A stretch of 43,387 nt of DNA from Actinomycetes bacterium (GTDB taxonomy: Bacteria > Actinomycetota > Acidimicrobiia > Acidimicrobiales > Acidimicrobiaceae), in assembly GCA_021784785.1 (NCBI GenBank), contig JAJYHJ010000081.1:1-43387 (forward strand). Reading direction: 5' to 3'. Below are positions 3,988 through 9,335 of the stretch, piece by piece. The translations under genes and the position numbers were made by a program. Position 1 is the first letter of the stretch, and each line of letters begins with the position of its first letter. Below the pieces are notes generated by a model. The model had not been told where the DNA came from and ran no database searches. It saw only the letters and a program-made list of their open reading frames with translations.

Positions 3988-5550
3988 TCAAGTTGTCACT
4001 TTTTGTGAACGAATCTCGCTTTCAAAAAACCACTTTGCCCTAACTAAATACTCGTCGATAACCATGCGTACCTGGTATGGCAAGCGGTTTAATCGGTAAA
4101 GAATTCCTGCCACGACCACAATCCCTAAAAGAAAGTACCCAACGAGTGCCATAAAGGACTGTCCACCTGTAATGGACAGAGGAAATGCCAAGATTGACAC
4201 TCCGACGATAGCCGTTCCACCGTAGCGCCCAACACTAAAAGCAAGCACAGCGATCGCCCAACTTAAGTACCACGGCCATATCACAGGACCGAGCAAAACC
4301 ACCACCAAGAGACTAACTCCCAAGTTCCGAAGCCAGTTCCGCTCATTTGAGATCAAAAGTAGATATAGCGATACGATTCCTGCTAACGCTAGACCCAGCA
4401 ACTTCATGATCGCGAGGTAGAGGTGGATCGAGATCGGTATGCCTATATAGGAGCCAAGCTCTTGAATAAATGTTGCAGCTGCAGTAACGGGATCTGCCGG
4501 AGAAACAGAAGCTCCGGGCGTAGAAAGAGACGCTATCCATCCCAACCCCAGACCCGTCGCTGTTCCAAGCACAACTGTCGTCACGGCACCAATAGCTAAA
4601 GCGTAAAGCGCATAACGGACACGTTGACTCAAAGTCGAAAAGGATCCCCAACGTACTCCGACGAAAACAAGGGCGGCAAAGGCTGGTGCTTTCACTAATC
4701 CGGCCAAAGTAATTATCACACAAGCCCATAGATACCTACCCTTGAGTGCAAGGTAGATTCCCCAAACCATTAGCCCTACCATCCATGCGTCGTTGTGCCC
4801 TGCAGATGCCAGATCATATAGGAAGATCGGATTAAGCGCCGAAAGCGCAAAAGCTGCCTCTTTGGAGTACCCTCGCATCTCTGCGATCTTCGACGCATAG
4901 ATACCCGTCAGCACTACTCCGCCAAGAGCGGCAAGTCGTAAAAGCACAACTGTGCCCAGAACCGAGTTACCTGCCAAGTGGACAAATAGATCTCCAACGT
5001 AAAGAAATACGGGGCCGTAGGGCGCTGGTGCTTTCATCCACACCGGATCCACAGCAAGTAGAAATGGTGAATGGCCAAGTGCTGCTGGACCTTGCGCGTA
5101 TGGGGAGAGGCCGACTCTCACCATATCGGCTTGGGCAGCATATGAGTAGACATCTCGAGACAGCAAGGGCCCTGAAAGCATAAGCGGTAGGACCCAGAGC
5201 CAAAAGAGTTTCCAAAGATAGCCCGAACTCGGCGACATTCCACGGTACATATCAAAAACAAGTTTCGCCCAGACGTAAATACCAACTACCATGCCGAGGT
5301 ATACGAGCCATCTCGATAAGAGCTCTATGAGAGAGTTTCCCTGTAAAGGAGTGTTTGGGACGCCAATAAACCAAGAACCTGGCACCTTAGATACAAACGG
5401 TGAGTTGGGCTGCCAAGTTCCAAGGAAAACCAGGACCGACCCAATCGTACCCAAAAACATCGGGTCCGTATCTCTAATCATATGAATAACGTCTACAAAC
5501 CTGCTACCTCTGGAATCGGACGCAAACTCAGACGATAAACCCACGCGCAT
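3988..5550 (-). CDS. mptB: Polyprenol-phosphomannose-dependent alpha-1,6-mannosyltransferase, MptA/MptB-like
   Basis: A 520-aa integral membrane GT-C enzyme with about 12-13 helices. The first large external loop carries LLSRDVYSYAAQADMVRVGL, SPYAQGP and DPVWMKAPAPYGPVFL, the signature of the MptA/MptB family. That family uses polyprenyl-phosphomannose to build the alpha-1,6-mannan core of lipomannan-type glycolipids on the outer face of the membrane. The acidic Asp of RDVYSY is the expected catalytic base. Start ATG 5550 lies directly after AAGGTGG, too close for a normal Shine-Dalgarno, so an in-frame GTG two codons later is possible. It is monocistronic here. The exact linkage formed is inferred from family only. 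Confidence 0.82.
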   Translation of the reverse strand: MRVGLSSEFASDSRGSRFVDVIHMIRDTDPMFLGTIGSVLVFLGTWQPNSPFVSKVPGSWFIGVPNTPLQGNSLIELLSRWLVYLGMVVGIYVWAKLVFDMYRGMSPSSGYLWKLFWLWVLPLMLSGPLLSRDVYSYAAQADMVRVGLSPYAQGPAALGHSPFLLAVDPVWMKAPAPYGPVFLYVGDLFVHLAGNSVLGTVVLLRLAALGGVVLTGIYASKIAEMRGYSKEAAFALSALNPIFLYDLASAGHNDAWMVGLMVWGIYLALKGRYLWACVIITLAGLVKAPAFAALVFVGVRWGSFSTLSQRVRYALYALAIGAVTTVVLGTATGLGLGWIASLSTPGASVSPADPVTAAATFIQELGSYIGIPISIHLYLAIMKLLGLALAGIVSLYLLLISNERNWLRNLGVSLLVVVLLGPVIWPWYLSWAIAVLAFSVGRYGGTAIVGVSILAFPLSITGGQSFMALVGYFLLGIVVVAGILYRLNRLPYQVRMVIDEYLVRAKWFFESEIRSQKVTT

Positions 5551-5731: not shown

Positions 5732-6220
5732 ATGCCCACCTTCGATGTTGTCTCAGAAGTTGATATGCAAGAAGTAAAAAACGCCGTTGACCAGACCTCT
5801 AGAGAGGTAAGCACACGCTTTGATTTTAAAGATACTGGCACATCCATCGAACTTTCTAGCGATGAAATCAAGTTGGTGTCGTCGACAGAGGATCGCCTTA
5901 GAGCGCTAATTACCGTCCTGGAAGAGAAACTTGTAAAACGCAAGGTTTCGCTCAAGTCGCTCGAAAGAGGAAAGATCGAAGAAGGATCCAGAGGGTCGGC
6001 CCGCCAGAGCATAAAGGTCGTTGCAGGTATCGATCAAGAACATGCCAAAGCAATATCAAAAACCATACGCGAGTCCGGACCCAAAGGAGTCACCGCCCAG
6101 ATTCAGGGAGAGCAACTACGGGTATCTTCAAAAAAACGTGATGACCTTCAAAGCGTGATTGAAACTTTACGCTCAACGGACTTTGGGATTCCTCTTCAAT
6201 TCATCAACTTTAGAGACTGA
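5732..6220 (+). CDS. yajQ: YajQ-family nucleotide-binding protein
   Basis: A 162-aa protein, the normal length. It opens MPTFDVVSEVDMQEVKNAVD and carries the family motifs TRFDFKDT, IKLVSSTEDRL, RQSIKVVAGID, ISKTIRESGPKGV, QGEQLRVSSKKRDDLQ and the terminal PLQFINFRD. Members fold as two ferredoxin-like domains. Some, such as the Xanthomonas protein, are reported to bind c-di-GMP and act with a transcription factor; others were linked to RNA or nucleotide binding. The role here cannot be told. It is a single-gene unit between tRNA-Tyr (divergent) and the large MprF-like gene. Confidence 0.95.
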   Translation: MPTFDVVSEVDMQEVKNAVDQTSREVSTRFDFKDTGTSIELSSDEIKLVSSTEDRLRALITVLEEKLVKRKVSLKSLERGKIEEGSRGSARQSIKVVAGIDQEHAKAISKTIRESGPKGVTAQIQGEQLRVSSKKRDDLQSVIETLRSTDFGIPLQFINFRD

Positions 6221-6407: not shown

Positions 6408-9335
6408 TTGACTAAGGAGTCTGAGATACTTGACATCTATCCTTATAGAGCCCAAAGAAACGACAGAGTTCTCGTGGTATCAAATCTTAGGCTCACTTCG
6501 TCAGAGCAACAAAGTGCAATTAAGTCTGCCGCATTAAGTACTTTTCTTCAAGAACTTGACACCTGGCGAGAACTTGACATGCTCGTATTCGCCGGGAATC
6601 TTTTTGACCTCAGCTCTACAAGTGACATAGATCTGGAGCGGACGATTGAGGACCATGCTGAACTCTTTAAGCGCCTTTACAATCAAAACACAAAGTACGG
6701 CACAACTTTACTCCTTCTTCCCGGAACCTTAGATTCTCAGTTCGCAAGTCGTCCAGAATTACAAAACCTTCTAAGAAGCTATGCACCCATAACGATCTCA
6801 AGAGCTCTCCGATTATCACTCGGCCAAGGTGACTACTCAAAAGACGTAATCGTCACATCTGACCTCGTTCCAAGTGATGCGATAGACGCAAGAGTTCAGT
6901 TCGAAAATGCTAGCCTACTTCGGCAGCTTACAAAGCGTATAGGAACAGAGTACCGGCTTCTAAGCGGAGCCGAGAAACTCGAGGATCCAAGCGATATTTC
7001 TGCGTTTGTCGTCTCACGCCTCGTATACCAACGCGGGGTACGATACTTACCCTTGGTCATAGCTCCGATTATTTTGGCGCTAGCACTAAAGATTCCGTTC
7101 GTGTTGACGCTCCCGTTGCTCTCGCATCTACAAGCACATCATGTTCAGATCAACAACCAGCTGGTCACAGTTGGAGCGAATACCGTAATAGACGCTCTCA
7201 TCATATCCGGACTTTATCTAATATTCGCAAAACGCATGTTCAGGTCACTCGAACGAGCAACGACGGCAGTACTATCACGCAACAACAAGTCCACCCATGA
7301 AGACACGTCCACCCTCGTCGATCTCGGATATCTAGGAGCGATCGAGTCAAGTGGTCTTTCGCCATCACTACTAAACGTAAGCGACGAACTCTTTATTGCA
7401 AGTCCTGGGGCTGTAACTTCAACTCTGCGACGTTTTCACATGCGCTTTGGACTTCCAGACACCTTTCTGGAAGTTCCAGTATGTTCTTGGATCGAGTTAA
7501 CGGCAGGATCCAACGTGCACGTGAAGTTACTTCGAACACCAGTTGAGTCTGAGATAAAGTGGCTCTGGAAAGTACTGTTAAAGCCTACCCACAAAATGCT
7601 CACAGCAACAGAGGTCCTTGCAAACTTTCCAAATGGGAAGGACTATCCCCAGGTTGGTAGTGAAACGCTAAAGGAGTCGTTCAGAGCCCGACGAGTCGCT
7701 TACTTATCACTCATGATCATTGGTTTTTTAGAGTTGCTTTCAGCCTTCACGCCCCCTCTTCGCGCAAGAATTCATATTCTATTGGAACTTTTTCCGAGCA
7801 TGATAACGGGATATGCTAACTCAATAACCGTAATCTTGGGGGTAGGAACCCTCGCATTAGCTAATGGTGTTAGAAGGGGTTCGCGACGAGCTTGGGTACT
7901 CACGCTCGTTAGCGTCCTAGCCGGTGTCGTATCAAACTTGATCAAAGGTGGGGACATCGAGGAGTCTTTATTGCTGGTATTAGCTGATGTATATCTGCTA
8001 GCCAACAGACGCGCATTTCAAGCCGCACCCAATCAAGAGCCAGGGCGGATTATCCGCGCAAGTACTTTGCTAGCTATAGTATCTCTTGCGGGAACTCTAG
8101 CGATAGAAGGGTTCTACCTGCTGGCGAAGAGACATCTGCTACCCCTTCGAACGGCGGTATTCGCAACGCTTGAACGTATGGTCGGAATCTCGTCAATCCA
8201 CCTAGATCCGGATCTAAGTAGGATCGTTACTCCAGCACTCGCTATCGCGGGGGTAACAACCTTAGGTGTCATCGCCTTTACAGTCTTCAATCCCATAGTG
8301 TCTACTATTGCTCACGAAATCTTTGATCCGAGTGCGAGAAACGATCCTTTCCAGATTGTTAAGCTCTATGGAATAGGAACTCTCGACTACTTCGCACTCC
8401 GAGATGACAAGACACACTTCGTATCTAAGTCGACCTTAATCGCATACGCTATCTTCAGCTCAACTTGCGTCATCTCGCCAGATCCAGTAGGACCAAAAGG
8501 AGTCAGAGAGATAGTACTCGAAGAGTTCATCAAGGAGATGAAAGGGAGGGGACTCTCCATAGCCGTGTTAGGTGCCTCTGAAGAGTGGATCGAAACCTAT
8601 CAAAAGCTCGGCTTGCACCCTTATTATATCGGCGACGAGGCTATAGTCCAAGTTGGGAAGATGTCCTTAGAAGGCAAGGCTAATAAGTCCCTTCGCCAGG
8701 CAGTAAACAGAATGAAAAAGTATGGGTACACCGTCGATGTACTAAAAGCTACTGATATTGGAGAACAAGATCGAAACGCGATTGCCAAAGTCCTGAGTGA
8801 GTCAAGAAAAGGACGAGTCGAGAGAGGTTTTTCAATGACTCTAGGTCGAATTTTTGATGAACGCGATAAAGACCTGCTATTGAGCATCTGCCGCTCACAA
8901 GATAACGAGATCGTTGGCTTTTGTCAATGGGTTCCCACAAATTTTCAGTCTGGCTATTCGTTAGATCTCATGAGACGAGAGATCGGAGATCATCCAAATG
9001 GGATGATGGATCTTCTCATCGTTGAGACGCTTTCACAACTGGTTGAAACGCCAGTTCAGTATCTAAGTCTCAACTTCGCAGCTCTTCGAGCCACTCTCGC
9101 AGGTGAACGCGGTGACGGTATCTCTCAGAAAGTCGAGCGCTGGGCTCTCGGCAAGCTTTCAGACTCGATGCAGATCGAGTCACTTTGGAGATTCAATTCA
9201 AAGTTCAACCCGACATGGACGGCTCGATACCTCGTCTACGACAATCTCGAGGACCTTCCTAACGTTGCATTTGCCGTTGCTAAAGCAGAGTCACTGTGGG
9301 ATATTCCAATCCTCGGTCGCTTGCTAACGCACTAA
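6408..9335 (+). CDS. Degenerate metallophosphoesterase fused to an MprF/LysX-type aminoacyl-phospholipid synthase
   Basis: A 975-aa membrane protein; TTG start after GAGGAAAAG. Residues about 20-180 follow a calcineurin-like phosphoesterase, but the metal motifs are gone: SNLRL replaces SDLHL, AGNLFD replaces GD-x-x-D, PGTLD replaces GNHD, and no GHTH is present. Two membrane helices (about 210-275) interrupt this domain; its tail seems to resume at about 295-410. Six or so more helices span about 425-640, then a DUF2156 acyltransferase-like domain runs about 650-960 (SMTLGRIFDERDKDLL, YSLDLMRREIGDHPNGMMDL, YLSLNFAALRATLAG, RFNSKFNPTWTARYLVYDN). MprF and LysX domains of this type move an amino acid from aminoacyl-tRNA to phosphatidylglycerol. 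The amino acid used is unknown. Confidence 0.83.
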   Translation: MTKESEILDIYPYRAQRNDRVLVVSNLRLTSSEQQSAIKSAALSTFLQELDTWRELDMLVFAGNLFDLSSTSDIDLERTIEDHAELFKRLYNQNTKYGTTLLLLPGTLDSQFASRPELQNLLRSYAPITISRALRLSLGQGDYSKDVIVTSDLVPSDAIDARVQFENASLLRQLTKRIGTEYRLLSGAEKLEDPSDISAFVVSRLVYQRGVRYLPLVIAPIILALALKIPFVLTLPLLSHLQAHHVQINNQLVTVGANTVIDALIISGLYLIFAKRMFRSLERATTAVLSRNNKSTHEDTSTLVDLGYLGAIESSGLSPSLLNVSDELFIASPGAVTSTLRRFHMRFGLPDTFLEVPVCSWIELTAGSNVHVKLLRTPVESEIKWLWKVLLKPTHKMLTATEVLANFPNGKDYPQVGSETLKESFRARRVAYLSLMIIGFLELLSAFTPPLRARIHILLELFPSMITGYANSITVILGVGTLALANGVRRGSRRAWVLTLVSVLAGVVSNLIKGGDIEESLLLVLADVYLLANRRAFQAAPNQEPGRIIRASTLLAIVSLAGTLAIEGFYLLAKRHLLPLRTAVFATLERMVGISSIHLDPDLSRIVTPALAIAGVTTLGVIAFTVFNPIVSTIAHEIFDPSARNDPFQIVKLYGIGTLDYFALRDDKTHFVSKSTLIAYAIFSSTCVISPDPVGPKGVREIVLEEFIKEMKGRGLSIAVLGASEEWIETYQKLGLHPYYIGDEAIVQVGKMSLEGKANKSLRQAVNRMKKYGYTVDVLKATDIGEQDRNAIAKVLSESRKGRVERGFSMTLGRIFDERDKDLLLSICRSQDNEIVGFCQWVPTNFQSGYSLDLMRREIGDHPNGMMDLLIVETLSQLVETPVQYLSLNFAALRATLAGERGDGISQKVERWALGKLSDSMQIESLWRFNSKFNPTWTARYLVYDNLEDLPNVAFAVAKAESLWDIPILGRLLTH

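Follow-up and report, generated by a model that had tools for sequence, protein, structure and literature searches.

The window, by which we mean the whole 43,387-nucleotide stretch of DNA that was analysed, carries on its forward strand a gene for a protein of 975 residues, with TTG as the first possible start, which is predicted to be a LysX-type aminoacyl-lipid synthase bearing an N-terminal LpxH-like metallophosphoesterase module. The features of this gene and of its upstream neighbour are as follows:

5732..6220, plus strand: YajQ/DUF520 gene, the upstream neighbour, on the same strand as the fused gene
6408..9335, plus strand: fused gene (975 aa) comprising a putative pseudo-phosphoesterase head, a LysX-type membrane part, and a PF09924 aminoacyl transferase
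6453..7022, plus strand: N-lobe of the head, residues 16–205, predicted LpxH-like alpha/beta core
6480..6494, plus strand: SNLRL (residues 25–29) replacing SDLHL
6594..6608, plus strand: GNLFD (residues 63–67) replacing GDxx[ED], with AGNLFD at residues 62–67
6720..6734, plus strand: PGTLD (residues 105–109) replacing GNHD
7023..7277, plus strand: predicted membrane hairpin (transmembrane helices 216–234 and 255–273) between ligand positions 4 and 5
7278..7661, plus strand: C-lobe of the head (residues 291–418)
7344..7364, plus strand: ESSGLSP (residues 313–319) replacing TGHTHxP
7683..8327, plus strand: LysX-type membrane domain (residues 426–640)
8355..9302, plus strand: double-GNAT aminoacyl-tRNA:lipid transferase domain (residues about 650–965)

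Of the 26 family genomes with sufficient flanking sequence, 24 have the YajQ/DUF520 gene upstream in the same orientation, compared with 5 of 67 other genomes; YajQ is linked to the binding of nucleotides or c-di-GMP. For the RidA and EamA neighbours, relatives stand beside the fused gene only within the genus, the flanks being short for most other genomes. Adjoining the YajQ gene, at 3988–5550 on the minus strand, is a gene for a membrane protein that has no Pfam match and scores 145 bits against 40 with the MptB mannosyltransferase model, and a relative of it occurs near the fused gene in 13 genomes. The source genome, which is 88% complete, contains one PF09924 gene and two other PF00149 genes; a second, intact copy of the fused gene was sought within these 88% and none was found.

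The C-terminal half belongs to a known kind of enzyme. Residues 658–944 match PF09924 at an E-value of 5.7e-62 (209.9 bits against a curated cut-off of 27.5), and the motifs S-x-D-L-M-R and F-x-x-K-x-x-P-x-W are common to the window protein and the solved MprF domains 4v36, 5vrv, 6lv0, 6lvf, and 4v34, with 4v36 matched at an E-value of 1.7e-21; the preliminary description had likewise read the DUF2156 half as keeping its typical motifs. The LysX model (NF002821) aligns to residues 426–967, starting at model position 17 and ending at 572 of 1102, and the bifunctional MprF model (NF033480) aligns to residues 428–959 from model position 323 of 841, with both equivalog cut-offs being missed (257 bits vs 742 and 228 vs 600, respectively). 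Because the LysX match stops at position 572 and the open reading frame ends at residue 975, the window protein lacks LysRS, and with no MprF match before model position 323 it also lacks the flippase subdomain; the part shared with both systems is, as these alignments indicate, the membrane domain together with the transferase. The protein thus resembles the actinobacterial LysX (Lys-DAG/Lys-PG synthase) in its membrane part and PF09924 domain but differs from it in having no LysRS and an additional LpxH-like head, whereas it shares with MprF (aminoacyl-PG synthase/flippase) the same transferase but carries the head in the position that the flippase takes there. A simple hydropathy scan located two helices in the head, at residues 216–234 and 255–273, in agreement with the earlier reading of a dead fold split by two membrane helices, and four above threshold in residues 426–640; the corresponding membrane region has five or six in the relatives from genomes G418, G354, G149, and G038 (such identifiers are our own handles), PF16995 is matched in this region of the relative L140, and six such helices are given for other LysX proteins in PMC8974105 and PMC10580965. 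The loop between the two head helices has no lysine or arginine and the flanking stretches have 25 and 20, for which reason both lobes of the head are predicted to be cytosolic. Other PF09924 fusions were observed alongside: L193 (427–4338) joins the transferase to a Rhomboid-like PF20401 domain (E 7e-8) in one open reading frame, as does L191 (696–3098) at an E-value of 6e-5, which is below cut-off, both in the taxonomic order to which the window belongs, and in L192 (1–4500) a class II (D/K/N-type) tRNA synthetase precedes the transferase, so that the arrangement of LysX is inverted.

Within the head, none of the seven metal ligands is present. The N-lobe ligand positions are occupied by N26, R28, N64, T107, and S151, the last of these standing at ligand position 4, where intact relatives have EHG, and both histidines of GHTH, the bridging aspartate, and the asparagine of GNH are all gone, the replaced motifs being those already read in the preliminary description. 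It is very probable that the protein is what had been proposed, an MprF/LysX-type transferase fused to a pseudoenzyme of phosphoesterase descent. The head could in principle still be catalytic through an altered site, a single-metal site, or a metal-free mechanism, given that some pocket residues are conserved and that several relatives retain one to three ligands; against this stand the empty site of the window head and the fact that we know of no member of the superfamily that works without both GHTH histidines, the bridging aspartate, and the GNH asparagine, and we therefore hold residual catalysis to be very improbable.

The assignment of the fold required homologues, since the window head taken alone gives nothing above cut-off in Pfam or NCBIfam scans; its only match below cut-off is DNA_pol_E_B (E 0.06–0.2), which we take to be a dead relative of the phosphoesterases. 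A profile of three sequences, the window head and those of two relatives from the same genus, matches 16 intact heads at 99% probability and an E-value of 3.1e-18 over residues 16–409, and a profile of 22 fused heads, none of them intact, matches the intact family at an E-value of 3e-57 in a profile–profile comparison. The window protein is matched in 42 of 60 related genomes, members of the intact family pass PF00149, and one of them, L033 from genome G037, displays SDLHLS, GDCFE, GNHD, EHGH, and GHTHIPEL, with PF00149 at 1.3e-7. In G418 and G354, PF00149 and PF09924 are both above cut-off in one chain. The claimed metallophosphoesterase fold is consequently upheld by comparison with homologues and not by the single sequence, and we regard as firm the prediction that the head shares its ancestry with the calcineurin-like metallophosphoesterase superfamily.

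Structural comparison, which the preliminary description had suggested as a check, was supportive but weak. A sequence search of the PDB with the dead-head profile returned no useful match, two designed immunoglobulins ranking first and the phosphoesterase Lmo2642 appearing at an E-value of 0.098; the intact-head profile reached LpxH only at 0.008, and the single intact head L033 found nothing in the same database. An AlphaFold2 model of the 431-residue head built from three sequences was poor (pLDDT 39.7), and the N-lobe modelled alone reached 56.7, with residues 20–130 at 57–86. The 21 best rows in a VIA-align comparison of this N-lobe model are all LpxH (Z 8.1–7.4, 15–23% identity), a result that we treat as support and not as proof, because the next row, SpoIIAA, follows at Z 7.2 and the N-lobe model is modest. 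Foldseek searches with the head models gave no match at an E-value of 0.001 or better, with crotonases mixed among LpxH and Mre11.

The extent of the loss was established by scoring ligands in one head-bearing open reading frame in each of 125 genomes, matches in G032, G035, G457, G560, G493, and G580 and weak phosphoesterase matches being left unscored. The family of the window protein was sought in 36 genomes, matched in 33, and scored in 31, and all 31 scored members keep at most two of the seven ligands (18 with none, 4 with one, and 9 with two); the 23 members in which all positions could be aligned comprise 11 with none, 3 with one, and 9 with two, and the N-lobe ligand positions are unalignable in 8 of the 31. 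Among the 23 aligned members the bridging aspartate is replaced by asparagine in every case, the neighbouring aspartate, which is not a ligand, is retained in every case, the last aspartate of GNHD is retained in 22, and the position of the GNH histidine holds arginine or lysine in 17, with leucine in the window. The homologue alignment proposed in the preliminary description thus revealed a decay common to the family. Relatives with intact motifs, which that description would have counted against its reading had they been close, occur both inside the order and beyond it, but none of them is close; local decay is rejected, since the site is lost in 31 of 31 scored members, and the loss of catalysis is, as these alignments imply, lineage-wide in the window family. 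A recent pseudogene was likewise considered and rejected, the matches in the related genomes containing no stops and dN/dS being low. A fused protein in G038 (L037, 1649–4198) has a dead head that is missing its membrane hairpin as well as a large part of the N-lobe.

The history of the head was followed in two quick trees, for which support is SH-aLRT alone. Of the 125 rows, 13 were dropped because their ligand positions were gapped, and the head tree was built from the other 112 with the ligand columns left out; in it the intact standalone enzymes (families f44 and f46) lie outside a 93-row clade to which all the fused proteins belong. The distribution of intact and decayed heads on this tree requires at least five changes, and because the tree is rooted on the intact standalone enzymes the change is read as a loss. 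The standalone enzymes themselves (L055–L072 and L051–L053) are hairpin LpxH-like phosphoesterases of approximately 450–500 residues with all seven ligands, and some genomes hold several of them. The transferase tree (113 rows) has one 90-row clade with a support of 90, made up of 86 dead heads and four headless rows, namely G414/G442, G434, and G358, the last being probably only a contig break; two further headless rows, G045 and G457a, lie outside it. The dead head stays in frame and shows purifying selection: dN/dS could be computed for 13 of the 15 dead pairs and lies at 0.06–0.30, values that are rough because dS is near saturation in several pairs. Of 16 gene pairs, 15 have a higher dN in the head than in the transferase, the exception being G245/G149 (0.19 for the head vs 0.27 for the transferase).

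A rival reading is that the dead head is a scaffold only, serving stability, dimerisation, or membrane placement, binding no ligand, eroding slowly, and being lost in some branches. Its rate of evolution is higher than that of the transferase, it is dispensable, because the transferase occurs headless in relatives (G414, G442, G434, and G045), and it gives the appearance of slow erosion because 8 of 31 N-lobes are unalignable and the hairpin is gone in G038. Yet the former site is patterned and the dead head persists in 88 fused proteins, which suggests a kept pocket, and we regard the scaffold as a possible but doubtful account.

The relatives outside the window family indicate that decay may take either half. 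The two halves were compared in the 94 fused proteins whose transferase columns were complete, by means of 14 conserved residues that we chose from the family alignment with the window transferase domain as the reference row, not all 14 being common to MprF. Four ligands or fewer are found in 88 of the 94, and all 88 keep 13–14 of the 14 transferase residues. At the other extreme, the transferase is decayed in G149 (10/14) and G245 (6/14), both of which keep 7/7 ligands and lack the lysine of F-x-x-K-x-x-P-x-W that is common to the five solved MprF domains shown. Two proteins from the same order as the window, G418 (7/7 ligands, 14/14 transferase residues) and G354 (7/7 and 13/14), are apparently bifunctional, to judge from these residues; G481 has 6/7 ligands and 14 of 14 transferase residues, and G094 has 5/7 and 13 of 14. 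The family of G418 also includes G604, with 7/7 ligands and a transferase cut by the contig end, and G607, with 3/7. A further member, L220 (733–3900, genome G608), has the bridging aspartate changed to asparagine as its sole ligand change, perhaps a first step of decay. The open reading frame of G509 has 7/7 ligands and is cut by the contig end, and that of G472 has 6/7 and a frame break before the transferase. Standalone heads with 7/7 ligands, nested among the fused heads, occur in G037, a closed genome, and G107, and PF09924 has no match in either genome. Outside the order, the fused gene was found only in G149, G245, and G094 in our sample. The decay of head and transferase is thus, as far as residue counts can tell, roughly reciprocal.

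One reading of this reciprocity is that head and transferase are antagonists or alternatives in one pathway, the phosphoesterase removing, for example, what the transferase modifies, and that lineages silence one of them. The near-complete transferases of all 88 proteins with four ligands or fewer, the full ligand sets of both fusions with decayed transferases and of the standalone heads in G037 and G107, and the G245/G149 pair, in which the faster-evolving half is the transferase and not, as in the other 15 pairs, the head, would all fit. But G418 and G354 keep both halves, G481, G472, and G608 nearly do so, and the transferase is lost in only three lineages, whose placement in the tree is moderately supported, with G107 on a long branch (support 81); antagonism seems to us unlikely.

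What the head may once have acted upon is suggested by its likeness to LpxH, which according to PMC5016852 binds two manganese ions through D8, H10, D41, N79, H114, H195, and H197 and has a helical insertion (residues 119–173) that holds acyl chains. All seven ligands recur in the intact relatives in unchanged order, the insertion falls in the same place between ligands 4 and 5, and LpxH is the closest fold to the window N-lobe model by VIA-align; in contrast to LpxH, the window head has no ligands and its insertion is a hydrophobic membrane hairpin where LpxH has a soluble helical lid. The LpxH equivalog PRK05340 is reached by none of seven intact relatives (three score 13–16 bits against 134, and four have no match at an E-value of 0.1), and the window has no match to it at an E-value of 1. 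Because the hairpin occupies the slot of the LpxH lid, we infer that a membrane lipid was the likely substrate of the intact form, and by this analogy the hairpin points to a lipid in preference to a nucleotide as the ligand of the head.

We favour, at a probability of about 0.5, the reading that an ancestral lipid phosphatase fed the acceptor lipid to the transferase and that the window head is now a non-catalytic module for binding or positioning lipid. The ancestor would have been bifunctional, its head removing phosphate or pyrophosphate from a membrane lipid, with phosphatidic acid, PG-phosphate, or CDP-diacylglycerol as candidate substrates, so that the acceptor lipid (DAG or PG) would have been made beside the transferase. 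In the window lineage, where catalysis by the head has presumably been lost, the phosphate-removal step could not occur, and the head, carried on its membrane hairpin, may now serve in the cytosol as a clamp for the lipid headgroup, holding or selecting the acceptor lipid or gating the transferase. In favour of this reading are the homology of the dead head to intact members, the ligand set and insertion slot that these share with LpxH, the purifying selection, and the patterned decay of the former site. Corynebacterial and mycobacterial LysX lysylates DAG, as stated in PMC10580965, which makes a DAG-forming partner sensible, and the abstract of PMC11630815 adds that MprF of Streptococcus agalactiae also uses glucosyl-DAG. 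The faster evolution of the head, the headless relatives, the erosion, the poor model, and the mixed Foldseek matches all count against this lipid-module reading. A broader proposal, which we put forward only tentatively, is that these proteins form a class of two-step lipid enzymes in which a hairpin-bearing LpxH-like phosphatase passes the acceptor lipid to the transferase on the same chain, and that the class splits repeatedly, each lineage keeping one catalytic half while the other becomes a pseudoenzyme; the window protein would then represent a late state, with the dead phosphatase as a reader of the acceptor lipid.

The position of the hairpin, where LpxH has its lid, the apparently bifunctional relatives, and the loss of the transferase instead of the head in some relatives were not part of the preliminary description. 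A comparable link between a lipid aminoacylase and a lipid-acting hydrolase exists in LpiA-AcvB of Agrobacterium, where, according to the abstract of PMC13197417, AcvB is a separate periplasmic Lys-PG hydrolase encoded in the operon, whereas the window head is fused and predicted to be cytosolic. A search of open-licence papers for such a fusion found nothing relevant, and, as far as we have seen, there is no description of such a head in place of the flippase, of its apparently active relatives, or of the reciprocal loss.

Enzymes of the MprF and LysX type determine the charge of the membrane and how well it resists cationic peptides and acid, and the relatives described here bear on how the acceptor lipid of these enzymes (PG, DAG, or glycolipid) is supplied or selected. 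The relatives form a graded natural series, from proteins with both halves intact (G418 and G354) through one with only the aspartate-to-asparagine change (G608), partly decayed heads, and the dead head of the window to headless and transferase-dead forms (G149 and G245), and the acceptor-lipid question may therefore be tested by comparing proteins. The series would also be a clear-cut example of how a pseudoenzyme emerges within a bifunctional chain.
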